From a bacterium (GTDB lineage: Bacteria > Patescibacteriota > Minisyncoccia > Phycocordibacterales > UBA9973): a stretch of DNA of 60,584 bases. Both the position numbers and the translations under genes were made by a program. Each line of letters begins with the position of its first letter. Positions within the stretch are counted from its first letter, which is position 1. The stretch lies in NCBI GenBank assembly GCA_021831595.1, contig JAKBMK010000015.1, forward strand, positions 1 through 60,584, read 5' to 3'. The notes under the pieces were generated by a model. That model made no database searches and was not told the origin of the DNA. It saw nothing but the letters and a program-made list of their open reading frames with translations. Positions 46,457 to 60,584 of the stretch are shown here, piece by piece.

Positions 46457-47503
46457 ATGAATAAAAAATTTTTTGGATTTATTTCAGTTTTAGCCTTTTC
46501 TTTAATATTTATTTTTTCTTTTGTAAATATCAGTAATGCTTTGTCTGATGTTAATATAAGTGCAGATTCATCAAATATTACAACAGATTCAGTTGTTCTG
46601 GAAGCTTTTGGTAGTATAACTCCCGGTACTTATAACTTTAGTGTTTATGAAGAAAGTGGTTATCCAGAAAATAGGAATAAGCGTGAGTTTGCTTCTGGTC
46701 CTGAAAGTTATACAGCCAATGCTTTTCTTTCTAGAATTGCAGTTACTTTAGTAGGACTAAAGCCAAGCACGCGATATGTTGCTGTCGTCTACAAAGATAA
46801 TTATAATGATGTGTCAGAGGTTCGATTTGCCACAATAGATGATCCAAATTCTGGAACGGAGACAATAACACTTGGGGCTGTTACCACTACTTCTGTTGAA
46901 ATAACAGTAAGTGGTTTAAGTGCTACAGACACTTACCAACTGTATGTGTCAGGGGATACAGGGAAAACTCCTAGTGTATCTTATGAACAAAACAAGAACG
47001 TTTCTTCTTCGAGTGGAAAAGTTACTTTTAATGGTTTAACTGCCAATAATAATTATGTTGCTTATCTTGTTAAAAATGGGAATAATAATTATAAGCTAGG
47101 TAGACAGTATTTTGTAGCGAAAGTAACATCAGCAAGCAATAATCCTAGTGTTTCAAATACACCGTTTTCAGGAATTGTTCCTACTTGTAATGTTGGGACA
47201 GTTGATCCAAAAACGGGCAAATTCCCAGTACCTTGTGATTTTAATTTCTTTATGAAACTTTTGAATAGTATAATCAAATTCTTGCTCTTTACTATTGCTA
47301 CACCTCTCATTGCTCTTATCATTATGTATACAGGTTATTTATACTTAACAGCTGGGGGAAATACTGGCCAAGTAGAGAAAGTAAAACACGTATTATTCAG
47401 TGCTGTTATTGGATATGTTGTAGCTCTCGCAGCCTGGCTCATAGTAAACACAATATTGTCTTCGTTTGGTGTTGATTCATCTGTCACAACTTTCTTGAAA
47501 TAA
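46457..47503 (+). CDS. exported protein with C-terminal pilin-like two-helix domain
   Basis: A 348-residue protein. After a signal peptide (1-28) come two beta-rich, FN3-like segments (30-120 and 125-220). A Cys-containing linker leads to a C-terminal domain with two membrane helices (about 270-295 and 312-335): SIIKFLLFTIATPLIALIIMYTGYLYLTAG, then a short basic turn and the second helix. This two-helix unit is shared by the next four genes and resembles the TrbC/VirB2-type conjugative pilin-like proteins abundant in Parcubacteria. Confidence 0.7.
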   Translation: MNKKFFGFISVLAFSLIFIFSFVNISNALSDVNISADSSNITTDSVVLEAFGSITPGTYNFSVYEESGYPENRNKREFASGPESYTANAFLSRIAVTLVGLKPSTRYVAVVYKDNYNDVSEVRFATIDDPNSGTETITLGAVTTTSVEITVSGLSATDTYQLYVSGDTGKTPSVSYEQNKNVSSSSGKVTFNGLTANNNYVAYLVKNGNNNYKLGRQYFVAKVTSASNNPSVSNTPFSGIVPTCNVGTVDPKTGKFPVPCDFNFFMKLLNSIIKFLLFTIATPLIALIIMYTGYLYLTAGGNTGQVEKVKHVLFSAVIGYVVALAAWLIVNTILSSFGVDSSVTTFLK

Positions 47504-47530
47504 ATTATTATTAACATTATTAAATCTTGT

Positions 47531-47950
47531 ATGAAAATTTTTAACGAAAAAAAATATAGTATTCTAAGAAATATTTTAAAATATAGTTTTGTGTTAGTTT
47601 TTGCAGCTTCTCTATTAGCCCCATTTATATTTGTCGGTGCAGCTGATGCACCTGGAGTGACAATAGATGCTAAAATTGAGAATCCTTTGGGTAAGAATGG
47701 TCCACAAAATCTACAAGATTTCATAAAGAAAATGATTGAGATAGTCCTTGTTGTTGGAGTTCCTGTTTTAGCTTTAGCTATTATATATGCTGGTTTCCTA
47801 TTTGTTAAAGCGCAAGGGAACAGTGAAGAACTTACTAAGGCCAAGCATGCATTACTCTATACAGTCATAGGTGGAGTCTTGCTTTTAGGAGCATTTGTCA
47901 TTGCTAACGCTATACAAGGCACAGTCAAAGATATACAGAGTGGTGTTTAA
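47531..47950 (+). CDS. TrbC/VirB2-like pilin protein 1
   Basis: A 139-residue protein. A signal peptide (cleavage near GAADAPG) precedes DAKIENPLGK and two helices: FIKKMIEIVLVVGVPVLALA and ALLYTVIGGVLLLGAFVI, with KAQGNSEELTKAK between. The hydrophobic pair around a short cytosolic turn is the VirB2/TrbC layout. It is the closest to a canonical pilin in the cluster. Confidence 0.72.
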   Translation: MKIFNEKKYSILRNILKYSFVLVFAASLLAPFIFVGAADAPGVTIDAKIENPLGKNGPQNLQDFIKKMIEIVLVVGVPVLALAIIYAGFLFVKAQGNSEELTKAKHALLYTVIGGVLLLGAFVIANAIQGTVKDIQSGV

Positions 47951-48002
47951 TTTATTTATAAAACGGTCGAAAATATTTAATTAATTTTTTAAATCAATAG
48001 AT

Positions 48003-48353
48003 ATGAATATTATTAATGTAGCAGAAGCAGCAAAAGTTTTAGGAACAGATCTAAATTGTGGAGCAGGGATAACTAATCTGACAAATTTGATTAATTTTTT
48101 CACTTGTACGATTATTGATTCTGTAATACCTTTGTTGTTTGTTCTATCAATCGCTGGGTTTGTATATGGAATTATGCAGTATTTCTTGAATCCAGAAAAT
48201 GAAGAGAAAAGAAAACAAGGGAAAACTTTTATGCTTTGGGGTATAATTGCTTTGTTTGTGATAGTAAGTATTTGGGGATTGGTGGGTATATTATCTAATA
48301 CCTTCTTAGATGCTAAACCAGCAGTAATGCCTGGTTTGAACATTAATCCATAG
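48003..48353 (+). CDS. TrbC/VirB2-like pilin protein 2
   Basis: A 116-residue relative of its neighbours, with two helices (IIDSVIPLLFVLSIAGFVYG and TFMLWGIIALFVIVSIWGLV) around NPENEEKRKQGK. The N-terminal signal is weak: NCGAGITNLTNLINFFTC has two Cys that might pair. The 52 bases upstream are non-coding. Confidence 0.68.
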   Translation: MNIINVAEAAKVLGTDLNCGAGITNLTNLINFFTCTIIDSVIPLLFVLSIAGFVYGIMQYFLNPENEEKRKQGKTFMLWGIIALFVIVSIWGLVGILSNTFLDAKPAVMPGLNINP

Positions 48354-48481
48354 GATAAATATATTGTATATATCATATCTTATTGATATAATATAGATAG
48401 TCTTGTACGTTTAGTTTATTCCTACAGTCGGTGGGAAAAGATAAAATTATTATAAGTTTATTTTAAAAATTAAGTTTTTAT

Positions 48482-48829
48482 ATGAAAAAATTAATTGCGT
48501 TTGGTTTGGTTCTAGGTGCACCAGCTTTGGCTTTAGCAGCAACAGGAAATATTGGAGGTATCCTTGCTCAATTGTTGAGTTATGTCAAAATGATCGTTCC
48601 TGTATTAATTACAGTTGCTATTGGTTACTTTATTTGGGGAGTTATCCAGTTTATATCAGCTTCAGATGAAGAAGCAAAGAAGTTGGGCCGCACAAGAATC
48701 ATCAATGGTCTTATTGGTCTATTCGTTATAGTTGCTTTCTGGGGAATTATCGCAGTTGTTCAAAATACTTTTGGAATTGAATCACAGGGTAAAGTAGGAA
48801 GTGACGCTATTATCCCAGGTAACTACTAA
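48482..48829 (+). CDS. TrbC/VirB2-like pilin protein 3
   Basis: A 115-residue protein with a signal peptide (MKKLIAFGLVLGAPALALAA) and the same two-helix unit, IVPVLITVAIGYFIWGVI and IINGLIGLFVIVAFWGII, around SDEEAKKLGRT. The 128-base gap upstream holds no gene; it contains TATAAT-like AT runs that may be a promoter. Confidence 0.68.
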   Translation: MKKLIAFGLVLGAPALALAATGNIGGILAQLLSYVKMIVPVLITVAIGYFIWGVIQFISASDEEAKKLGRTRIINGLIGLFVIVAFWGIIAVVQNTFGIESQGKVGSDAIIPGNY

Positions 48830-48837
48830 TATTCACT

Positions 48838-49158
48838 ATGACTTTTCAGTTTATCCCAACAGCAGAGGCAAGTATCGTTACCCTTATGGGTAGTATAAAT
48901 AGGGTTATAATTAATCCTCTTATATACTTGCTATTTGCTCTAGCGCTTGCTTACTTCTTGTATGGTTTAGCAAAATATTTGTTATCACCTGATAATGAAG
49001 AATTGCGTTCAAGTAGCAAGAGTCATATGCTTTGGGGAATATTTGGAATGTTTATAATGATAGCCGTTTTTGGAATAATGAATCTCATACTGAAAACAGT
49101 AGGGGAGGATAGAATACAAATAAACAATGGAGATATAAAGATAGGAGAATTACAGTAA
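48838..49158 (+). CDS. TrbC/VirB2-like pilin protein 4
   Basis: A 106-residue protein, 8 bases after the previous gene. Two helices (INPLIYLLFALALAYFLYGL and HMLWGIFGMFIMIAVFGIM) flank SPDNEELRSSSKS. The signal peptide is unclear. It ends the pilin-like cluster before a strong terminator. Confidence 0.68.
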   Translation: MTFQFIPTAEASIVTLMGSINRVIINPLIYLLFALALAYFLYGLAKYLLSPDNEELRSSSKSHMLWGIFGMFIMIAVFGIMNLILKTVGEDRIQINNGDIKIGELQ

Positions 49159-50536: not shown

Positions 50537-50608
50537 GGCCTTATCGTCTAACGGTTAGGACATCGGCTTTTCAAGCCGGTAATCCGGGTTCGATTCCCGG
50601 TAGGGTCA
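50537..50608 (+). tRNA. tRNA-Glu (UUC)
   Basis: A 72-base cloverleaf: acceptor 5' arm GGCCTTA pairs with TAGGGTC (two wobbles). The D arm contains AACGGTTAGGAC. The anticodon arm TCGGC-TTTTCAA-GCCGG has anticodon TTC. The T arm is CCGGG-TTCGATT-CCCGG. CCA is not encoded; discriminator A at 50608. A promoter (TTGATT 50494-50499, TATACT 50516-50521) precedes it. The recombinase gene at 50548-52134 overlaps 61 bases on the opposite strand. Confidence 0.95.
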
Positions 50609-52134
50609 CAAAGTGAAACTCGTTTCGAAAAATCGTCCGCGCGCTCACGCGCGATAGTCTGGCGGGGTTCGGCGGGGGTTGAAATCGTCTTTGAATTAAA
50701 TGCGAATTCTGTGGGTGGGCAAAATGAGACAGAGATAGACTTGTCCCGCAATTGTGAGTTCGTTCCAATTTTTTTGAAATAGTCACGAATTTCAAAAAAA
50801 TTGTCGCTAGATTGCAATTGCGCGGCTTTTTTCATATCCAAAATCCATTCCCGCAAGGGTTCGACCCAATTCTTTCTTTCTGCTCGAGCAGATTCTTTTT
50901 TCTGAGTGAGAGACACTTTCAGTTTCAAAAGCTCGTTCTTTTTTGATAAATAGTTTTCTTTCGGAATATCGCCGTCTAGATATAAAGTGACGAGTTCGTC
51001 GAGCTTTTGTTCTGTCTCTCGCTCATCTGTTTTAATCTGCTCGAGCAGACTTCCCGACGATACTTTTTCTTCGTTATTCCATTCGTCAGTTTTTCGTAAC
51101 ATATAGTCAGTCCAATCGTCGGGAAGCGAAATTTTTTGAAGCTGTTCTTTTAATTGAAGAACGACTAAATCCTCTCGCAAATATTTTTGTTTACATTTTC
51201 CTTTTTTCTTTGTGCAACGATAATAGCGATACTTTACGCCCATTTTCCCTATACACCATTGAGCAGTTATCATACTTCCACATTCTGCACAATGAAAAAG
51301 TCCTGTAAAAGGAAAATTATGACCCTTCTTTGTTTTGCGAGGATGAGATCGTTCTTTAAATCTTTTCTGCACAGCTTCAAATAATTCAGATGAAAGAATT
51401 GGCGCAAAGCTTCCGGGAAAATACTCATCACGATGTTTCGTTAAACCAAGATATGCTTTATTCGTTAAAATACGAGACACGGAAGCTTTGCCAAGTGGCG
51501 TTCCGGACTTTTGTGTTACTCCATGCAAAGCCAAAAACTCAGACATTGATTCTAGTCCGTGGTGTCCTTTAGCATATTCCTCAAAAGCACGAATGATAAT
51601 TTTTGATTTCACAGGGTCAGGTTCAATATTTCTCAACTTTTGATTATTCAAATAACCGAATGGTGCTTTTGTAAGCCACTCACCACGGCGGAGTTTTTGG
51701 CGGATACCTCGCTCAACATTTTGTTTTAAATTATCAGAATAATATTTAGATTGTCCGAACGCCACTTGAAGCATAAATAGACCTTGCGGGGTAGGTTCAA
51801 ACCAAAATGTCGGAAAGCGTAAAGAAACTATTTTGGTCGTGTCCACAGCGTAGATGATGCGACCTCCGTCGATACTATTTCTCGCTAGTCTGTCGGGGTG
51901 CCATGCGAGAATACCAACACCATTTAAACTTTCAACCTTAGCCATCATCTCGCCGAATTTCTCACGACCTGGTTTCTTTGCACTTTTCGACTCTGTAAAT
52001 TCCTCAAGAATTTGCAGATTTTCTTTATGTGCATATTCGCGTAATTCGAAAAGCTGAGCCTCGATAGACATTACTTGTTTGTCGTCGTCCTCGGTGGATT
52101 TTCGAGCATAAAGAAAATATTTTGGTTTTATCAT
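50548..52134 (-). CDS. large serine recombinase (site-specific)
   Basis: A 528-residue recombinase. The resolvase domain (5-150) has the catalytic Ser13 in YARKSTEDDDKQ and Arg in WHPDRLARNS. The recombinase domain (about 160-270) contains APFGYLNN and GKASVSRILTNKAYLG. A zinc ribbon follows (CAECGSMI...YRCTKKKGKC), then a coiled coil (about 380-445). The last 18 residues (PTGNRTRITGLKSRCPNR) and the stop are read from the antisense of tRNA-Glu. The native element end probably lies near SLCD. It likely mediates integration at the tRNA. Confidence 0.88.
   Translation of the reverse strand: MIKPKYFLYARKSTEDDDKQVMSIEAQLFELREYAHKENLQILEEFTESKSAKKPGREKFGEMMAKVESLNGVGILAWHPDRLARNSIDGGRIIYAVDTTKIVSLRFPTFWFEPTPQGLFMLQVAFGQSKYYSDNLKQNVERGIRQKLRRGEWLTKAPFGYLNNQKLRNIEPDPVKSKIIIRAFEEYAKGHHGLESMSEFLALHGVTQKSGTPLGKASVSRILTNKAYLGLTKHRDEYFPGSFAPILSSELFEAVQKRFKERSHPRKTKKGHNFPFTGLFHCAECGSMITAQWCIGKMGVKYRYYRCTKKKGKCKQKYLREDLVVLQLKEQLQKISLPDDWTDYMLRKTDEWNNEEKVSSGSLLEQIKTDERETEQKLDELVTLYLDGDIPKENYLSKKNELLKLKVSLTQKKESARAERKNWVEPLREWILDMKKAAQLQSSDNFFEIRDYFKKIGTNSQLRDKSISVSFCPPTEFAFNSKTISTPAEPRQTIARERADDFSKRVSLCDPTGNRTRITGLKSRCPNR
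50606..50722. repeat. 117-bp inverted repeat, left copy
   Basis: Perfect reverse complement of 52192-52308. It begins with the last three bases of tRNA-Glu (TCA) and codes on the minus strand for the recombinase tail (EFAFNSKTISTPAEPRQT and onward). Confidence 0.93.
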
Positions 52135-52191
52135 ATATGTTTTTGGATTATGAAAAAAGAAAGTCTATGTCTCGTCTCATTTATGTACCCA

Positions 52192-52308
52192 TTGCCCACC
52201 CACAGAATTCGCATTTAATTCAAAGACGATTTCAACCCCCGCCGAACCCCGCCAGACTATCGCGCGTGAGCGCGCGGACGATTTTTCGAAACGAGTTTCA
52301 CTTTGTGA
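52192..52308. repeat. 117-bp inverted repeat, right copy
   Basis: Perfect reverse complement of 50606-50722, upstream of the recombinase start. Reading toward the right it could encode the same recombinase tail, preceded by CTHC in place of the normal sequence. The next ~100 bases (52309-52409) contain nothing I can identify. Confidence 0.93.
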
Positions 52309-52409
52309 TGTATTACTATCCTTTGCACGAACTTATTTTGAACAAAATGAAAGCTAATCTTACGCTCGACTTTTGTTATTAATTTGAATCTCTCTACACC
52401 GCTCTACTA

Positions 52410-52526
52410 ATGTATTAATTCGCTAAAAGAATGCGGACTCGGTTTTGCGAAACTAATTTGCGGGAAAGGATTCGCAAAACCTCGACTTATTTCTATTTTG
52501 CCTTGATTTCTCTTTTTGCCGTGCAG
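52410..52526. repeat. second long inverted repeat, left copy
   Basis: Perfect reverse complement of 60468-60584 over 117 bases; the match may continue beyond the window end. It contains an internal 11-bp inverted repeat, GGTTTTGCGAA with TTCGCAAAACC. A short ORF here has no protein character. Confidence 0.9.
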
Positions 52527-52600
52527 AAGGAATTCGGAATGCAGAACTAAATGGAAAGCCTCGATAATTATAGCATATTTATTTCCGTGATTATCTATCG

Positions 52601-52990
52601 TTCTGGGTGGCACACCTCGGCATCCGCCTCGGGCATTACCGCTATGGCTACTCGCGCCTACATGCCTAGGTATGGTAACGGCTCAAATACCGGGGGAATG
52701 AGCCGTTACCATTCTTCTCGGGGAGAGGAAGTTTCCTCTCCCCGGGTCGGGTGCTTCTGGATCACCAGAAGTCCACCCTCGCCACCCCCACTCTACGCTA
52801 TTTATTCCTTTGTTTAGTGTGTCGCTTTCGCTACTAACCTTTAGATACTTCGATTAACCTCGGCGCTCATCCTTTAAGCCACTGGACGCCATAGCGGTAA
52901 TGCCCGAGGCTCCTTTATACTCGTGCTTGCCCCAGCTCCGTGTGATTACACACGGAGCTATCCCTCCCGTGCGTGCACGAACTCACTCCC
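52601..52990 (-). ncRNA. large, GC-rich, heavily folded candidate ncRNA
   Basis: No credible ORF; GC content is far above the surroundings. A 23-bp perfect stem (52626-52648 with 52888-52910) closes a multi-branched domain. Inside are a 14-bp hairpin (52672-52685 / 52699-52712), a 12-bp hairpin (52719-52730 / 52733-52744), a 7-bp hairpin on a 5-bp base stem (52749-52778) and a GAAA-capped hairpin near 52821-52843. Outside it an 11-bp hairpin (52934-52959) is framed by TCGTGC/GCACGA. The GAAA loop reads as GNRA only on the minus strand, so I favour that strand. I cannot match it to rRNA, tmRNA, RNase P or a known large RNA. Confidence 0.6.
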
Positions 52991-52993
52991 TTA

Positions 52994-53158
52994 TTAAATT
53001 TTAGAATAGGACACAAACTTTCCTGTTTTTCCAGATTGTTTGATTTTATTTTCCTTTTCCAAAGTATTTAGATATCTCGTAGCTGTTGCATCTGATACAT
53101 GCATGAATTTCTCAACTTCGTCATTAGTTATCTTTGTTTGCTTCGCAAACAAAGTCAT
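52994..53158 (-). CDS. winged-helix DNA-binding fragment, 54 aa
   Basis: From an ATG at 53158 the frame encodes a recognisable winged-helix end: ITNDEVEKFMHVSDATATRY is the helix-turn-helix (helix 3 in SDATATRYLNTLE) and SGKTGKFVSYSKI the wing. The frame stays open upstream with a plausible first helix (SESKLIYKIMTLFAKQ) but no ATG, so it is either initiated from a rare codon or a 5'-truncated relic. It is 40 bases after the DUF347 gene and ends next to the large candidate RNA. Confidence 0.45.
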   Translation of the reverse strand: MTLFAKQTKITNDEVEKFMHVSDATATRYLNTLEKENKIKQSGKTGKFVSYSKI

Positions 53159-53198
53159 GATTTTATAGATTAGTTTTGATTCACTAATTTTTAGAAAA

Positions 53199-54443
53199 CT
53201 ACTTAAGTGTGTTAAGTAAAATATCTAATGCAGATTTACTTCCAGCTTGAGTTGGGTTTACCGCCCGCAATTCCCTTAATGTTCTATCTGTCGCATTATC
53301 AATCTCTGTCCACTTTACTTTGTTCATTGGCTTAAGTTTTGATTGTGAGTTATCCCACTCATACTCAAAATCAGCTATACGTGTTTTAGCCCCAGCTAAA
53401 TTATTAGCAATAACTAGATTTCGTGTATCCTCCGTAATTTTAATAAAAGTAGATAAATCACCAAGTGGTGATAACAGTAATACTGGAGAGTTTTGATTGG
53501 GCGTAGAAGTTGTAACAGCTAGCTTAGCTTCTGCTTGAAGGGCATTATGTCTAAAATAATAAGCTCCACCACCTACAACCACAAATATAGCTACTGTAAT
53601 CACTGTCTGCCATATTAGCCCTGTCCCTTGCATATCTTCTTTTGCTTCAACTAAAGCGTTTTTGATAACGTCTTTTTTAGAAAAAGTAAAATACAAAACT
53701 ACTGCTAAAATTCCAGTCAAGAATATGACACTAGTGACAGTTGCTCCTAGTCCTAAACCTCCAAACTTAGTTGGCTGTGATAATAAGTCTCCAATTGAAG
53801 CTCCTAACGGACGAGTCATTATGTAAATAATCCAAAATGAAAGCACTGAATTAAGTTTAAGTCTTTGAGCAACAACAATAGAAGCGATTACTACGGCAAC
53901 AATAATACCAGTCACAAGATAGCCGAGCCCTAAACTTTCTGCCATTAAATCACCTGATGCCGTACCGAGAGCAAAAGTGAAAAGAATAGTCAGCCAATAA
54001 AAAACCTCTCTTCTTTTAGTAAAAATTGAATGAATGGATAGTGTTTTTTCTTTCCAATACCATATGACAAAAGTTAACATCAACATAACAGAAAAGAATA
54101 TTGTGGTGGTCTCAAGCGGGACACCTATGCTGTCAGTGAGAATATCTGTAACTAGTGTCCCAAAGACACTTATAAAAACTACTGTAATCCAGTAAACGCT
54201 TGGTATATATTTCTTTGATCTAAATTGAAAAATAAGTGCAATTATTAATAAAATACCCATAACAACAGAGGTTCCTGTTAGACCAAAATTTAAATTAACA
54301 TTTAAAAAATCGGCGAAGGTTTCTCCGACCGTTGTACACAAAACTTTTATTATCCAGAATAAAAGCGTAATCTCTGGAACTTTATTAAAAATCTGACGAC
54401 CAATAGAAATATCACCCTGAGACTTATTTTTTAATATCTTCAT
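53199..54443 (-). CDS. DUF347-repeat membrane protein (COG4705-like)
   Basis: A 414-residue protein. Its N-terminal ~270 residues hold about eight membrane helices organised as repeated DUF347 units; KVPEITLLFWIIKVLCTTVGETFADFL is the first, and GDL-type motifs recur (TLVTDILTDS, TASGDLMAESLGLG, ASIGDLLSQP). A C-terminal extension has another helix (about 285-305) and a soluble helical part of ~100 residues. Function unknown; the family is often near PepSY or two-component genes. Confidence 0.72.
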   Translation of the reverse strand: MKILKNKSQGDISIGRQIFNKVPEITLLFWIIKVLCTTVGETFADFLNVNLNFGLTGTSVVMGILLIIALIFQFRSKKYIPSVYWITVVFISVFGTLVTDILTDSIGVPLETTTIFFSVMLMLTFVIWYWKEKTLSIHSIFTKRREVFYWLTILFTFALGTASGDLMAESLGLGYLVTGIIVAVVIASIVVAQRLKLNSVLSFWIIYIMTRPLGASIGDLLSQPTKFGGLGLGATVTSVIFLTGILAVVLYFTFSKKDVIKNALVEAKEDMQGTGLIWQTVITVAIFVVVGGGAYYFRHNALQAEAKLAVTTSTPNQNSPVLLLSPLGDLSTFIKITEDTRNLVIANNLAGAKTRIADFEYEWDNSQSKLKPMNKVKWTEIDNATDRTLRELRAVNPTQAGSKSALDILLNTLK

Positions 54444-54490
54444 ATCAGTCTATTCTATTATTTAATAATGAAAAAATAATGAAGATTCAC

Positions 54491-54534
54491 ATATCAAAAA
54501 CGCCACTTTATCTAAGAGGTGGCGTTTTTGATAT
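54491..54534 (-). terminator. strong terminator after the PepSY gene
   Basis: ATATCAAAAACGCCAC and its complement form a 16-bp stem around a 12-base loop. Confidence 0.88.
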
Positions 54535-54560
54535 AAAGAACAAGTTGTATTATTTAATTT

Positions 54561-55049
54561 TTATTCCCCGAATTCTCCCTGCCCAGAATCTTTTTCATTC
54601 TGTTCGTTTTGTGCGTCAGAATCATTATCACCTTGGTCGTTCTTTAATATTATGCCATTTACTGCATCAATTTTAACTTCTGATTTATTGGATAGTTTAA
54701 CCTCATAAATTGCTTTTCCATTTTCATCTCCAACAACAATGTTTTTAATAGTTGTATTTGGATTTGCATCTAGTGCTATTTTAGTAGCATCTGCCTCAGA
54801 AATTTTAACTTGAGCAAGAACATCAGCGGAAACAACATCCTTACTATCATTTTCCTCTGTATCATTTCCTTGTGCATCCTTTTGATCAATATTTTGATTT
54901 TCTTGATTAGGAGTTGTGGTAGATACAGTTACTTGTGATAGAGCTGGTGTCGTGCTTGGTGTTTGAGCAAACGATTGATAAGCGATAGAGCCAACTGCTC
55001 CAATAGCGAGCATTCCAAGTGCTAATAATGGTATTTTTTTATTCTTCAT
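54561..55049 (-). CDS. exported PepSY-domain protein
   Basis: A 162-residue exported protein. I start at 55049 to give a clean signal peptide (MKNKKIPLLALGMLAIGAVG, ending SFAQ). A polar linker of Asn/Asp/Gln leads to a PepSY domain: KISEADATKIALDANPNTTI, then VVGDENGKAIYEVKLSN and KIDAVNGIIL. PepSY domains modulate proteases or sense ligands at the envelope. An acidic Gln-rich tail follows. Confidence 0.8.
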   Translation of the reverse strand: MKNKKIPLLALGMLAIGAVGSIAYQSFAQTPSTTPALSQVTVSTTTPNQENQNIDQKDAQGNDTEENDSKDVVSADVLAQVKISEADATKIALDANPNTTIKNIVVGDENGKAIYEVKLSNKSEVKIDAVNGIILKNDQGDNDSDAQNEQNEKDSGQGEFGE

Positions 55050-55142
55050 ATTTTTATAAATTATTAATAAATGATTATTCATATGACTAGTATGAATTAC
55101 ACTTATTATATAAAGTTAAAATGAGAAAAAAATGAAGATGGA

Positions 55143-55730
55143 TTAGTCTTTTTGCTCAGCTCCACCCGCGTCTTTAGCTATCTGGATAGTGGCAATTTTA
55201 AACTCTGGTGTACTAATTTCTACATTAAATTGCATTTTGTTCTGACCAGTAAAATACATGCCATTCTTGTTTAATCCAAAATGATTTTCTCCTACACCAT
55301 TATCAAAATGAATTGTCTTTGTTTCTCCTGCTTTAAGTGTAAATCCTGTTAGTTTTTTGTAATACCCTTCCTTCTTTAGTGTTGTTAAATCTGTAATTGT
55401 ATAATATGCCTCAAAATTACTCATATCTTTTACTGAACTATTTTTTAAAACTAATTCTAAATGGTCATCAGCGGTTTTACCATTTTGATCAACATTATTT
55501 TCTACTAAACCAGATTCTATTCTGAGACCAGAAACAGTTGAAGTATTCTTAATAAGATTGGTGTAAAGACCAGGGACTATGTCTTGTGGGTCACTAGAAA
55601 CATTTTGCGTCGTACCAACAGCTTGATTTGTAGTATTTACTTTTTGTTTAGAAGAATGCGATACACTTATAATTACACCGACGATAACCATTAAAACGAT
55701 AATTCCTATTATATATTTATTTTTATTCAT
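55143..55730 (-). CDS. exported DUF4352-like immunoglobulin-fold protein
   Basis: A 195-residue protein with one N-terminal helix (residues 5-25), a Thr/Asn linker and a beta-sandwich domain. HLELVLKNSSVKDMSNFEAYY, the Gly-rich FTLKAGETKTIHFDNG and a final strand are in the style of DUF4352 or CARDB-like domains. Its role outside the cell is unknown. It lies between the PepSY gene and the ABC-2 operon on the same strand. Confidence 0.58.
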   Translation of the reverse strand: MNKNKYIIGIIVLMVIVGVIISVSHSSKQKVNTTNQAVGTTQNVSSDPQDIVPGLYTNLIKNTSTVSGLRIESGLVENNVDQNGKTADDHLELVLKNSSVKDMSNFEAYYTITDLTTLKKEGYYKKLTGFTLKAGETKTIHFDNGVGENHFGLNKNGMYFTGQNKMQFNVEISTPEFKIATIQIAKDAGGAEQKD

Positions 55731-55770
55731 AATTTATTCTTATAATTTACTAATAATGATTAGTGACGAG

Positions 55771-56748
55771 CTATTCATTTTGTTGCCATAGATTTTTACT
55801 TCTATTAAATGCATATACAGGTGTTATCCCAAATACTAAAAGAAATATTACAATTAAATCGAGGTCTTGTAATTTATCTTTAAAGATAAAACCCAAAAAC
55901 TTATTATTATACATATCTTTTATTCCCAAAAATGCAAAAACTAGTCTTTCGTAATGCTTAGTAATAGAAATTTCTTCAGTACCATTTCTTAGTTTTTCGT
56001 AAGTAGAGAAATCTTTGAGAATAATATTAGATTGTTCTTTGTTTACATGGATTGCATTAAAGAATCCTCCAGGAACTTGATTATCTGTATCCATTGTATC
56101 TCCAATCTGAGGAACAATAAGCACAAAGAATAACCATATTACAAACGAAAAGATTAGTGCATTTGATGGATGTTTTACTATGATTGTAAACAATGCCGAT
56201 AGTGAGAAAAATATAAATAAGTATAATATCGTTGCTCCAGTTGTTAATAATATTTTTGTGATTTCTAAACTGTTCAAATTAACCCCACCGACGAATCTAA
56301 TTAGCAAGAACGTAAATAAAAATAATATAACCGATATAGAAACAATCAAGGCTATATTGCCTAGCATTTTACCGATATAATACTTCTTTCTGGAAATAGG
56401 TCTAGTGAAAATAAGTGGCAATGTCCCATTTCCTTTTTCTTTTGCAATGCTTAAATATCCAAGCGAAATAGCAAGGATAGCCCCAATAATTTCCAAATAT
56501 TCAATTGTCGCTCTTAGGAGTTGTAGTGGAAAAAATTCTGGTTTTACCAAAGTATCCGAAGGTTGTCCATTAACGATAAGTTGTGCATAAGTCTTCTCAA
56601 AAAGTGAAACCTTGGCTTGATAATTCACTGAACCTACATAAATAGAGATAGCTGTTAACCCCAAAAGAAAAATCAAGAAAGTAAGAAATACTTTGTTTCT
56701 AATGGCATCTTTAAATTCTTTTTTTGCAATAGTTACTATTTGATTCAT
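55771..56748 (-). CDS. ABC-2 type permease B
   Basis: A 325-residue permease; the ATG at 56748 is 4 bases after the previous stop. It has about six helices. IAKKEFKDAIRNKVFL is the usual N-terminal amphipathic start, and EKGNGTLPLIFTRPISRKKYYIGK is the cytoplasmic motif of NosY/ABC-2 subunits. A large external loop (about 220-290) separates helices. It partners the next permease and the ATPase. Confidence 0.8.
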   Translation of the reverse strand: MNQIVTIAKKEFKDAIRNKVFLTFLIFLLGLTAISIYVGSVNYQAKVSLFEKTYAQLIVNGQPSDTLVKPEFFPLQLLRATIEYLEIIGAILAISLGYLSIAKEKGNGTLPLIFTRPISRKKYYIGKMLGNIALIVSISVILFLFTFLLIRFVGGVNLNSLEITKILLTTGATILYLFIFFSLSALFTIIVKHPSNALIFSFVIWLFFVLIVPQIGDTMDTDNQVPGGFFNAIHVNKEQSNIILKDFSTYEKLRNGTEEISITKHYERLVFAFLGIKDMYNNKFLGFIFKDKLQDLDLIVIFLLVFGITPVYAFNRSKNLWQQNE

Positions 56749-56752
56749 ATAT

Positions 56753-57703
56753 TTATTCGTTGACGACATCTCCTTTAGAGTCAAATCTCTCTAATGATTT
56801 GATTGATAAAAATAAAAAAATAAAAGTACCTCCAAGTAGTGTAAGTATTTGAAGGATATTCTTCATTAAGACTTTTAAGATTGGGAGACTTGCAGTGAAT
56901 GAACTTCCGAGCAGCTCACCACTGATTGTGTAATAATGCCACGCTAAAGAAAATGGGGCTAAAAGTTTTTGTGAGACTTGGAAAAATGTATCGAGTATGG
57001 GTAATTGTAAAAGTGTTACAGGGTTAAGTAATGCGGTAGGAGTTAAGCCAGTTCCTAGCTCTGGCAATATAAAGGTTATACCTACCCAAATACAAACAGG
57101 GAGAAATAAAGCTAAAGATTGACTCTTTGCATTTATTGCAAAATATAATCCTATAACCGCAAAAAATAACATATATAAAAATGAAATAAAGAAAAATACC
57201 AACAAATGAGATATATCTGAAAAATTTAAAGGTGTAAGAGGTAAAAAGTAAGAAGACAAGATACTTATTAAAGCAGTAATACCAACGATTGAAAAAATTG
57301 TAATACTTAAACCTAGAACTTTACCAAATATTACCGATTTTTTCGTTACTGGTCTGGTAAATAAAACTTGTAATATACCAGACTTTCTTTCATGCATCAT
57401 ACTATGATGGCCTACGATAATTGCAAGAAGAGCACCAATTAGAGATATATAAATAATTAAATTATCAAAAGAAGTCAAAGTTGAAATTTTAAGAAGTGGA
57501 TTACTGGCAATATTAGTTATTCCTTGCCCTTGTAAAAATACTACAGAAGATTTATATACAGCATTTGCAGTTGTAAAAGTAGACCATCCTATAAAAGATG
57601 AAGCCATAGACATTAAAATAAAAACAAGAGTTATTGAATATACTATCCTTTCCCTAAATAGTGATTTTATTTCAGCAAATGTAATGGTGAGAGTATTCTT
57701 CAT
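56753..57703 (-). CDS. ABC-2 type permease A
   Basis: A 316-residue permease with about six helices. TFAEIKSLFRERIVYS is the amphipathic start, and ERKSGILQVLFTRPVTKKSVIFGK matches the cytoplasmic ABC-2 motif also found in permease B. The stop is 4 bases before permease B. With two unlike permeases and one ATPase, the transporter is heterodimeric in its membrane part. Export of a peptide, lipid or drug is likely, as for NatAB or Nos-type systems. Confidence 0.8.
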   Translation of the reverse strand: MKNTLTITFAEIKSLFRERIVYSITLVFILMSMASSFIGWSTFTTANAVYKSSVVFLQGQGITNIASNPLLKISTLTSFDNLIIYISLIGALLAIIVGHHSMMHERKSGILQVLFTRPVTKKSVIFGKVLGLSITIFSIVGITALISILSSYFLPLTPLNFSDISHLLVFFFISFLYMLFFAVIGLYFAINAKSQSLALFLPVCIWVGITFILPELGTGLTPTALLNPVTLLQLPILDTFFQVSQKLLAPFSLAWHYYTISGELLGSSFTASLPILKVLMKNILQILTLLGGTFIFLFLSIKSLERFDSKGDVVNE

Positions 57704-57704
57704 A

Positions 57705-58430
57705 TTATTTATTCTCCATAGAGAAATATATCTCTTCTAGCGAAGACTCATCTTTAAATTTCTTCATAGTATTCTCAAGTGAATCAAGATATATTAAATT
57801 TCCATGATTAAGAACTCCAATAGTGGTACAAGTTTTTGCAACCTCAGAAAGTAAGTGAGTATTCATAAAAATAGTCATTCCCTTTTCTTTATTTAATTTA
57901 ATTATTATTTCTCTTAGTTTCTTTATTCCCATTGGATCAAGTCCACTTGTCGGCTCATCTAAAAACAATACCTCTGGGTCGTGTAATATAGCTTGAGCAA
58001 TACCGATACGTTGTCGCATTCCTTTTGAGAATTCTCCTAATTTTTTATTCTCATATCCAGTAAAATCAATAAACTTTAATGCCTCGTCAATCTTACCCTT
58101 GGGATTATCTGTCCCTGAAAGTTTTGCTAAATATTCAAGATTTTCATATACGGTCAAATTATCATAGAATTTTACATTCTCAGGTAAATAACCAATTCTT
58201 TTTTGGACTTCTAGGCCTTCCGTTTGTGTATCATATCCACAAATAGAAGCAGCCCCAGATGTAGGAGCGATAAGTGTTGTCAAAATACTTACAGTTGTTG
58301 TTTTACCTGCTCCATTATGTCCCAGGAATCCAAAAATTTCACCCTTGTTTATTTCTAAATTTAAATGATTAAGAGCAATATCATCTTTATATTTTTTTGT
58401 TAAATTATTAGTTGAAATTATTGGTTTCAT
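57705..58430 (-). CDS. ABC transporter ATP-binding protein
   Basis: A 241-residue ATPase. Walker A is GHNGAGKTT, the signature is FSKGMRQRIGIAQAIL and Walker B is EVLFLDEPTSGLDP; the Q-loop and H-loop (MNTHLLSE) are present. It is one base from permease A, in an operon reading from the two-component genes toward the permeases. Confidence 0.92.
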   Translation of the reverse strand: MKPIISTNNLTKKYKDDIALNHLNLEINKGEIFGFLGHNGAGKTTTVSILTTLIAPTSGAASICGYDTQTEGLEVQKRIGYLPENVKFYDNLTVYENLEYLAKLSGTDNPKGKIDEALKFIDFTGYENKKLGEFSKGMRQRIGIAQAILHDPEVLFLDEPTSGLDPMGIKKLREIIIKLNKEKGMTIFMNTHLLSEVAKTCTTIGVLNHGNLIYLDSLENTMKKFKDESSLEEIYFSMENK

Positions 58431-58442
58431 ATATTTTTTTAA

Positions 58443-59408
58443 TTAGATTCTTGGAATAGTTATTGTAACTATTGTACCGACGTTTATTGTACTATTAATT
58501 TTAATATCTCCTTCATGTTGTTCTACTATTTGTTTCGAAATACAAAGTCCAAGCCCAGATCCAGATAGGTCATTTCTTGAATGTTCCGCCTTGTAAAATC
58601 TATCAAATACATAAGGCAAGTCCTGCTCATTTATTCCAACACCTGTATCTTTAATTAAAATTAATGCTTTTTTAGACTCTTCTTTTAAACTAATTTTAAT
58701 ATTGCCATCTTTTGTATAGTGAATTGCATTTTGTAATACATTTGAGATGGCTCTTTCAAAACTATTTAGGTCAATCTTTACTAACATTTTTTCATATTCA
58801 TCCATTTCTAATTTCAAACCTTTATTCTCTGCTTGAGATTTCATTTTAAATACTATTTTCTCTATAAAATTATGTAGGTCACTAACAACAAAATTATTGG
58901 TTGTATTTTCATTTTCACTTCTAGAGATAGCAAGTAAATCATCCACTAGAACGGACATTTTTTTAGCTTCTTCTAAATTACTTTTTACTATATCCTTAAA
59001 ATCATTTTGCTTATTATTACCCTGTAGAGAAACTTCTGATTCTGTAATAATAATAGCAAGTGGAGTACGTAATTCATGAGAAGCATCAGCAGAGAATTTT
59101 TTCTGAGCATCGAGACTATTTTGAATCGGTTTTAATGTTCTCCCAGCTAAAAAATAACTTGAAAAGGCAATGATTAAGAGCAAGATTCCATCAATTGAAT
59201 AAACAATAGTTTCTATGGTGTTATTTGCATGCTCTATAGGGTCTTCTTCTGTCTCAACCATTATAATCCTCCCACTTAGAGTTTCTCTCAATTTTAATTC
59301 AACTGTATAAATCAAAACACTGCTAAAAATAGCTAAAATAATAAGCATTATTCCGACATAATAAGCAGTGAGTTTAATTCTAGCATTTTGAAATATGTTA
59401 TTTTTCAT
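58443..59408 (-). CDS. OmpR-partner membrane histidine kinase
   Basis: A 321-residue kinase with ATG at 59408, one base after the regulator's stop. Two helices (about 13-35 and 75-95) frame a short external loop. The H box is SADASHELRTPLAIIITES, the N box VLQNAIHYTKDG, and G boxes are DTGVGINEQD and GSGLGLCISKQIVEQHEG. The short sensor loop suggests sensing in or near the membrane, often the substrate of the adjacent ABC exporter. Confidence 0.88.
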   Translation of the reverse strand: MKNNIFQNARIKLTAYYVGIMLIILAIFSSVLIYTVELKLRETLSGRIIMVETEEDPIEHANNTIETIVYSIDGILLLIIAFSSYFLAGRTLKPIQNSLDAQKKFSADASHELRTPLAIIITESEVSLQGNNKQNDFKDIVKSNLEEAKKMSVLVDDLLAISRSENENTTNNFVVSDLHNFIEKIVFKMKSQAENKGLKLEMDEYEKMLVKIDLNSFERAISNVLQNAIHYTKDGNIKISLKEESKKALILIKDTGVGINEQDLPYVFDRFYKAEHSRNDLSGSGLGLCISKQIVEQHEGDIKINSTINVGTIVTITIPRI

Positions 59409-59409
59409 A

Positions 59410-60081
59410 TTAGGCATTAAATTTGTAACCAATTCCATGAATAGATTCAAATATGTTTTCGTTCTTACCTTGTAATTTTTTTCTAATATTTCTAACATTT
59501 ACATCCACAATATTACTAAATGTGTCATAGCTAAAATCCCAAACATGAGCGATAATCTTGTCTCTACTTAATACCTGATTTTTATTTCTTAAAAACAATT
59601 CAAGAATAGAAAATTCTTTAATCGTTAATTTTATATTTTTACCATTCTTTTCTACTGTATGTTTTATTGTATTTAGTTTTATTCCCGCACCAGTAAGTTC
59701 AGTTTCTAGTGCTTCTTTGGGTCGACGAAGTAATGCTCTTATTCTTGCAGTTAATTCCGTAAATTCAAATGGCTTTACTAGATAGTCATCAGCACCAACA
59801 TCAAGACCTTCTATTTTGTTTTCTAGAGTATCTCTGGCGGTGAGCATCAAAACTGGAGTTGTTATATTTTGACTTCTTATTTTTTTACATAAATTTATGC
59901 CATCTAGCTCTGGAAGCATTATATCTAAAACAATTAAATCAAAATTTTCTGGACTTGCTTCTATTCGTCTTAAGCCTTTTAATCCATCATAAAGCACATC
60001 AACAGCATAGCCTATATTCTCTAGGCCTTTTTTGATTGAGTTTGCTAGCTTTATTTGATCTTCAATAACTAAAATTCTCAT
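59410..60081 (-). CDS. OmpR-family response regulator
   Basis: A 223-residue regulator. The receiver has the acidic pair in VIEDQI, the phosphoacceptor Asp in LIVLDIMLPELDG, the Thr in LMLTARD and the Lys in YLVKPFEFTEL. The C-terminal winged helix ends SIHGIGYKFNA and contains YDTFSNIVDVNVRNIRKKL. I start at 60081, though an in-frame ATG exists at 60087. It leads the regulator-kinase-ABC operon and probably controls it. Confidence 0.92.
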   Translation of the reverse strand: MRILVIEDQIKLANSIKKGLENIGYAVDVLYDGLKGLRRIEASPENFDLIVLDIMLPELDGINLCKKIRSQNITTPVLMLTARDTLENKIEGLDVGADDYLVKPFEFTELTARIRALLRRPKEALETELTGAGIKLNTIKHTVEKNGKNIKLTIKEFSILELFLRNKNQVLSRDKIIAHVWDFSYDTFSNIVDVNVRNIRKKLQGKNENIFESIHGIGYKFNA

Positions 60082-60153
60082 GTACATACATTATATCAAA
60101 GAAATGAAGAAATAATGAAGAAATATTTTAGAACAAAAATATTAAATTAATTA

Positions 60154-60360
60154 TTATTTTAATAATTCACTGTTCGAAATCCCAAGAGCTTTAGCAATCT
60201 TTTCAATATTTTGAAGAGATAAATTTCTAGCACCTCTTTCAATATCACTAATATAAGTTCTGTGTAATCCAGATTTAAAAGCTAGCTTCTCTTGCGATAA
60301 GCCCTTTTGAATTCGTGTTTCTTTAAGTTTTTCTCCAAATTTTTTCTGTATGTTTATCAT
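60154..60360 (-). CDS. XRE-family Cro/CI-type regulator
   Basis: A 68-residue protein that is essentially one helix-turn-helix domain: FGEKLKETRIQKGLSQEKLA, then FKSGLHRTYISDIERGARNL and the last helix. It is the size of phage Cro or conjugative-element repressors. AGTGACA half-sites in opposite orientation flank the intergenic promoter region (60364-60431), which would let it control itself and transcripts toward the right end. Confidence 0.87.
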   Translation of the reverse strand: MINIQKKFGEKLKETRIQKGLSQEKLAFKSGLHRTYISDIERGARNLSLQNIEKIAKALGISNSELLK

Positions 60361-60431: not shown

Positions 60432-60467
60432 TAAATTAGCTCGGCCGTGCATTCCTCCCGCACCCTC

Positions 60468-60584
60468 CTGCACGGCAAAAAGAGAAATCAAGGCAAAATA
60501 GAAATAAGTCGAGGTTTTGCGAATCCTTTCCCGCAAATTAGTTTCGCAAAACCGAGTCCGCATTCTTTTAGCGAATTAATACAT
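60468..60584. repeat. second long inverted repeat, right copy, at the window end
   Basis: Perfect reverse complement of 52410-52526. Immediately before it GCCGTGCA and TGCACGGC form an 8-bp hairpin (60444-60475). The window stops inside the repeat, as expected if assembly broke at a repeated sequence. Confidence 0.88.

Follow-up and report, generated by a model that had tools for sequence, protein, structure and literature searches.

Inverted attachment half-sites frame a large serine recombinase and its cargo in widespread tRNA-targeted gene islands of Patescibacteria

The perfect 117-bp inverted repeat around a serine recombinase gene next to tRNA-Glu, in the 60,584-nt stretch of patescibacterial DNA that was analysed as a whole (the window), is one visible part of a mobile gene island whose type is widespread among ultra-small bacteria and apparently undescribed. 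The layout, tRNA [P' recombinase P'inv] [P cargo Pinv] chromosome, is well supported, and the repeat arms are copies of one attachment-site half, not transposon termini. We regard it as likely that such islands are run by one large serine recombinase, in the order B-core-[P' recombinase P'inv]-core'-[P cargo Pinv]-core-B', and that a swap of the enzyme's C-terminal tail locks them in. This reading draws on the observed anatomy, the within-locus homogenisation of the arms, the core repeats, an empty site, the spacing of the half-sites and a tail that is in frame. The features of the window are as follows.

50537-50609, plus strand: tRNA-Glu(TTC), the integration target (ARAGORN/Rfam; relatives have empty tRNA-Glu sites); the T-arm of this tRNA, GTTCGATTC, forms the B half of attL.
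50548-52134, minus strand: large serine recombinase of 528 codons in its integrated form; Resolvase, Recombinase and Zn-ribbon domains.
50606-50609, plus strand: attL core TCAC, common to the middle site and the far end in the related genome G047.
50606-50722, plus strand: left arm, the P' half of attP, overlapping the 3' coding end of the recombinase; recurs in 49 of 55 loci.
52192-52308, minus strand: right arm, an inverted P' copy; partial match continues to 52161.
52305-52308, minus strand: inverted core (GTGA on the plus strand) of the middle attP, probably intact.
52309-52357, plus strand: P half-site adjoining the core, with CGAAC (T-arm mimic).
52410-52530, plus strand: part of the P arm (probably 52309-52530) that is repeated inverted at the other cargo end, with a 99% match to 60464-60584.
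52545-53000, no strand assigned: structured, probably RNA-coding module at one cargo end.
53199-60087, minus strand: cargo genes for a DUF347 membrane protein, a PepSY protein, an unknown protein, two ABC-2 permeases, an ABC ATPase, a histidine kinase and a response regulator.
60154-60360, minus strand: small HTH regulator of the XRE type at the opposite end of the cargo; its transcription runs away from P.
60464-60584, minus strand: second, inverted P arm; the contig ends within it, about 100 bp before the predicted attR (far ends were read in relatives).

The two arms, 50606-50722 and 52192-52308, are 117 nt long, 100% complementary and separated by 1469 nt, while chance inverted repeats in 60 kb reach about 16 nt. 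The left arm starts with the last 3-4 bases of tRNA-Glu (50537-50609), the right arm repeats the 3' end of the recombinase gene in inverted orientation, and beyond the perfect part the similarity continues at 92% (50606-50742 versus 52161-52308). These results agree with the first-pass annotation, which had described perfect 117-bp repeats framing the recombinase, a left copy beginning within the end of the tRNA and decayed similarity past the perfect part; its view that long perfect inverted repeats with a serine recombinase at a tRNA are unlike known serine-integrase elements likewise held. Both arms recur in an independent assembly, G047, with a 95%-identical recombinase that is also located at tRNA-Glu. 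At tRNA-Gly of the window's own genome, a 44%-identical recombinase has an unrelated repeat of 147-150 bp in the equivalent position. The inverted repeat is therefore not an assembly artefact.

The recombinase belongs to the large serine recombinase family; the Resolvase catalytic domain, the Recombinase domain and the zinc ribbon are all present, and phmmer finds a match to SPbeta YokA. Its conserved part stops near codon 470, at the start of the arm, and the frame then runs through the left arm into the tRNA antisense strand, which makes up the last ~20 codons. Another recombinase of the same genome, 78% identical, ends at the 3' end of tmRNA.

Outside the right arm conserved sequence resumes (TGTATTACTATCCTTTGCACGAACTTATTTTGAACAAAAT in the window, similar in relatives), and was named P, the arm being P'. 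The P motif is present in nearly all loci with sequence at this place. In relatives the cargo comes next, followed by an inverted P of about 100-320 bp and usually by 3-5 bp of the tRNA end. About fifteen loci contain this complete element, with an inverted P at the far cargo end (L072, L102, L108, L116, L118, L122, L127, L129, L161, L164, L165, L169, L178, L085 and G047). The far-end cores are GCAC (L072, L122), CCAC (L102, L108), TCAC (L116), CCGC (L127, L129, L169), GGCAC (L161), CAGC (L164), CTC (L165) and CGCAC (L178). The inverted P detected in L072 has only 35 bp, in L118 an inverted P is present but this reading gave no clear match to the core, and L085 is nearly devoid of cargo. For the tRNA-Gly island of the window's own genome, the matching far P is the end of contig 33 (C33). 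In the window the second P comprises the last 121 bases of the contig, so the island is taken to extend from 50606 to roughly 60,690, with attR beyond the contig; a search of the other contigs of the same genome did not find this far end.

The comparison with empty tRNA-Glu sites that the first-pass annotation had proposed was possible for G047. When its attL and attR flanks are joined, they give an intact tRNA-Glu and terminator, as in the empty sites of three relatives (G052, G065 and G045). An intact tRNA, a far core repeat and an empty site, the marks of a tRNA/tmRNA genomic island, were found for G047 and about a dozen relatives. At the right end of L162 (G143 C2:178507), the inverted P of the cargo runs into P', i.e. 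an attP junction, as in a tandem island or an excised circle.

We estimated how general the layout is from 80 loci of GTDB species genomes together with the loci of the window's own genome; 55 could be evaluated for the arm repeat. The first-pass annotation had rightly advised a search of Patescibacteria, and 49 of the 55 loci have the repeat, with lengths of 71-152 bp (median 131 bp) and a median identity of 99.2%. Homologues with standard attL/attR but no repeats, which the first-pass annotation had named as contrary evidence, were not found; many of the repeat-bearing loci have attL and attR as well. In six of the 55 the test used detected no arm repeat; L112, L124 and L134, at least, nevertheless keep an attP-like site upstream, and the upstream P' differs from attL where both are readable. 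In a comparison with the nearest relatives, the two arms of a locus have a median identity of 99.3%, versus 72.7% to the nearest relative (recombinases sharing at least 70%), with two exceptions in 47, suggesting that the arms are kept alike by exchange and diverge in old copies. In half of the 80 loci the contig breaks no more than 450 nt upstream of the recombinase, a pattern expected for a long repeat or a variable junction. One Patescibacteria-type recombinase at tRNA-Ser (L132, JAUYJH010000095.1) lies in a MAG labelled Deltaproteobacteria, on a contig that is probably mis-binned.

The target genes comprise tRNA-Glu, Ala, Ser, Arg, Gly, Val, Leu, Lys, Pro, Ile, Tyr, Gln, Thr, Phe and Asn as well as tmRNA. 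The distance from GTTCG to the core is 18-19 nt in the tRNA T-arm and 23-25 nt in P (41 loci). In 37 of 38 loci P is thus shifted by 5-6 bp relative to the tRNA, which matches the published difference between attB and attP of serine integrases, in which the motif for the zinc domain is located 5 bp further out in attP (PMC3783163). The shift is typical of attP versus attB, and the site upstream of the recombinase is therefore probably an intact attP. Judged from these spacings, P'-core-P upstream of the gene is probably attP, the tRNA junction attL and the far junction attR. The enzyme seems to read the T-arm that is common to all tRNAs and tmRNA. Repeated target switches on the recombinase tree fit such a mode of recognition: the target tRNA changes 27 times, versus a minimum of 13 and a value of 54 for shuffles.

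Joining of the left arm to P has a further consequence, because the reading frame then runs on into a conserved tail with the consensus DILTFARTYFEQN (...ILxFARTYFEQN and a stop). This native tail is in frame in 67 of 76 loci, and in 65 of the 67 the stop is located 7-17 residues past the arginine. One-base codon differences are synonymous in 48% of cases in the tail frame, versus 18% and 12% in the other two (pairwise, non-independent comparisons). In the window, 52309-52357 joined to the P' arm encodes the native tail VLLSFARTYFEQNES, with the stop codon at 52355-52357. The integrated recombinase ends in the tRNA antisense sequence ...SLCDPTGNRTRITGLKSRCPNR, and on an excised circle its tail would be ...SLCDVLLSFARTYFEQNES. 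Assembled genes with the native tail occur in L038, L067, L086, L136 and L170; L086 resembles a tandem in which a remnant persists at tRNA-Glu, with 23 bp of P' left.

The cargo is variable and of host type across the candidate phyla, e.g. transporters, kinases, a histidine ammonia-lyase and a glycosyltransferase. No transfer or replication genes were visible in the cargo sets examined, and neither the window cargo nor the relatives' cargo examined has a second small serine recombinase as a partner. IMG/VR, PLSDB and INPHARED yielded no close phage, plasmid or viral relative. The G047 island combines a nearly identical recombinase unit at the same tRNA with different cargo genes. Its cargo ends share two modules with the window, the HTH gene and the structured RNA-like module, in the opposite order. 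The HTH regulator has an equivalent place in G047, and HTH proteins beside P also occur in the cargo of L115 and L127.

Copies of the structured module were located at 52545-53000 of the window, 1096-1491 of L013 and 9541-10412 of L145. Very strong folding is predicted for both strands (z -7.4 and -10.0), and homologues occur in 37 of 297 genomes of the order. Rfam gave no match for the module, and the consensus fold of 27 distant copies was weak because the alignment was poor; the module is possibly an undescribed structured RNA. Next to it, 53004-53166 of the window is a remnant of an HTH protein gene, of which a longer version of 185 codons is intact in G047 (L145 10240-10794). Just upstream of the island (46457-49158), small open reading frames with repeated hydrophobic stretches look like related small membrane proteins. 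Inverted copies of tRNA 3' halves with a hairpin interruption occur downstream of several tRNAs (G000 C29:690-771 and C21:18878-20349; L145 9391-9504; L058); they then carry a conserved GGACCGCGAGTACGC...AACCTTACAGGTTC motif and look like another repeated tRNA-linked element.

The likely mechanism can be outlined as follows. In the excised circle, attP (P-core-P') would span the 3' end of the recombinase gene, and two copies would be present in opposite orientation; no free circle was seen. The circle would make the complete recombinase, which would recognise attB through the T-arm motif GTTCG, universal in tRNA and tmRNA genes, and integrate the circle via the attP at its own 3' end. Integration would use up this attP, creating attL between P' and the tRNA and attR between the far P and the chromosome. 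The second copy would stay intact upstream of the recombinase and keep a spare inverted 3' end, which would explain the inverted P' arms on either side of the recombinase and the inverted P arms around the cargo. Integration would also replace the conserved C-terminal tail with an arbitrary tRNA-antisense tail, a change that probably lowers the activity of the recombinase and locks the island in. Homologous exchange between the arms would be the simplest homogeniser; a route other than the integrase is needed because attP x attP is not known for serine integrases. We infer from the sequences a bacterial serine integrase that is self-locking ("suicidal"-like) and keeps an inverted 3' end in reserve. 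A further step is tentative, and we would not favour it at present: the lock may have a key. In this view the tail swap disables the enzyme, and homologous recombination involving the spare inverted 3' end would turn the gene round, give it back its native tail and so permit excision.

In more than 80 loci the tRNA is located at the 3' end of the recombinase. A search for tRNAs at its 5' side yielded only L088 and L098 (20 nt visible), both ambiguous. The L088 contig is flipped relative to the 99.9%-identical L082, and it is probably mis-assembled through a mis-traversed repeat, because its distal arm again ends in GTGAC like the tRNA. In L098 (positions 1-173), different tRNA-Glu ends flank the recombinase unit, as though recombination had taken place between the middle attP and a second tRNA, and the contig stops 20 nt into the latter. 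A short-pattern search for P copies in the L088 and L098 genomes gave chance-level results. Integration via the other attP, or a flip of the unit, would leave a complete enzyme beside an intact attP; the near absence of the other orientation (more than 80 to one ambiguous case) suggests that such states are short-lived.

The same distribution bears on the idea, raised in the first-pass annotation, of an invertible switch that carries its own recombinase. In a self-contained switch of this kind, flipping of the recombinase unit between the P' arms, toggling between tRNA tail and native tail, would be the main job. The geometry is exactly right, a flip would restore the native tail, the arms are homogenised, the end modules of the cargo are oppositely ordered in the window and G047, and L088 is flipped relative to L082. 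However, the single orientation in more than 80 loci and the probable mis-assembly of L088, the lone exception, speak against it, and we consider the switch unlikely. Slightly less credit is due to two further proposals. One is that the second inverted attP amplifies or isomerises the excised circle, like the inverted FRT repeats of the yeast 2-micron plasmid. The circle would indeed hold two identical inverted sites, and the cargo orientation varies between elements, but the cargo sets examined contain no replication gene and no attP x attP reaction of serine integrases is known (PMC3783163), making this improbable. The other, about equally improbable, regards the inverted copy as regulatory (e.g. 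antisense or terminator control of the recombinase) or as a relic, in either case playing no part in recombination; a GC-rich hairpin with a T-run in the arm is compatible with it, but arm plus P has the full attP spacing and P is retained alongside.

The first-pass annotation had also proposed a one-gene transposon-like element that ends with its terminal 117-bp inverted repeat at 52308. The perfect repeat does enclose the recombinase, but in relatives the P half-site, cargo, inverted P and attR core come next, outside the repeat pair, and the empty-site boundary in G047 does not coincide with the end of the recombinase alone; this proposal is very improbable. Integrons have a tyrosine integron integrase and an attC array; the island has a serine recombinase and a single cargo block between two P arms, and is not one of them. 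The caution of the first-pass annotation about a k-mer-length assembly artefact, to which the end of the contig at another ~121-bp repeat might lend weight, can be set aside for the class as having practically no probability, as independent assemblies carry repeats of differing length and sequence.

The preferred reading, a tRNA-targeted island with a tail-swap lock, is of interest for several reasons. Gene exchange in Patescibacteria, whose genomes are tiny, is poorly understood, and the islands carry host-type cargo across candidate phyla. A T-arm-targeting recombinase with attP in its own tail and two inverted sites allows integration locking to be tested directly, and the recombinase could be a broad tRNA-targeting integration tool. 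A full-text search of open-access papers found no description that combines Patescibacteria, a serine recombinase, a tRNA and an inverted repeat.

Among known systems, the large serine integrases of phages (LI/A118, phiC31, Bxb1, SPbeta YokA) share the Resolvase, Recombinase and zinc-ribbon architecture and the attP/attB spacing shift with the enzyme described here; they have a single attP and short att sites and belong to phage genomes. The yeast 2-micron plasmid, a replicating plasmid that does not integrate, has inverted FRT repeats and the tyrosine recombinase Flp, and the island circle would resemble it in having two identical inverted recombination sites. In the ssrA islands of Dehalococcoides, the gene of the serine recombinase DsiB adjoins attL at the 3' end of tmRNA, and the authors suggest that the gene is perhaps complete only in the circular form (PMC3146451). 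The ssrA islands are similar in the overlap of gene and target and in their diverse cargo, but differ in having 20-bp direct repeats and a six-gene integration module with DsiA, and no inverted second attachment site is reported there (PMC3146451). The ssrA-GI/SCC type has a second, small serine recombinase as partner and a syntenic integration module; no such partner was seen in the cargo of the window or in the relatives' cargo examined. The inverted second attP is in none of the descriptions of the systems compared. Suicidal integrases have been described as exclusively archaeal (PMC8371274). As in SSV1, pTN3 and pT26-2, attP lies inside the integrase gene, the enzyme is altered by integration and tRNAs are the targets, but the archaeal enzymes are tyrosine recombinases whose gene is split in two and which have no spare inverted 3' end (PMC8371274), whereas in the serine recombinase only the C-terminal tail changes. 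If true, the tentative lock-and-key reading would be a bacterial answer to the question of how suicidal integrases escape.
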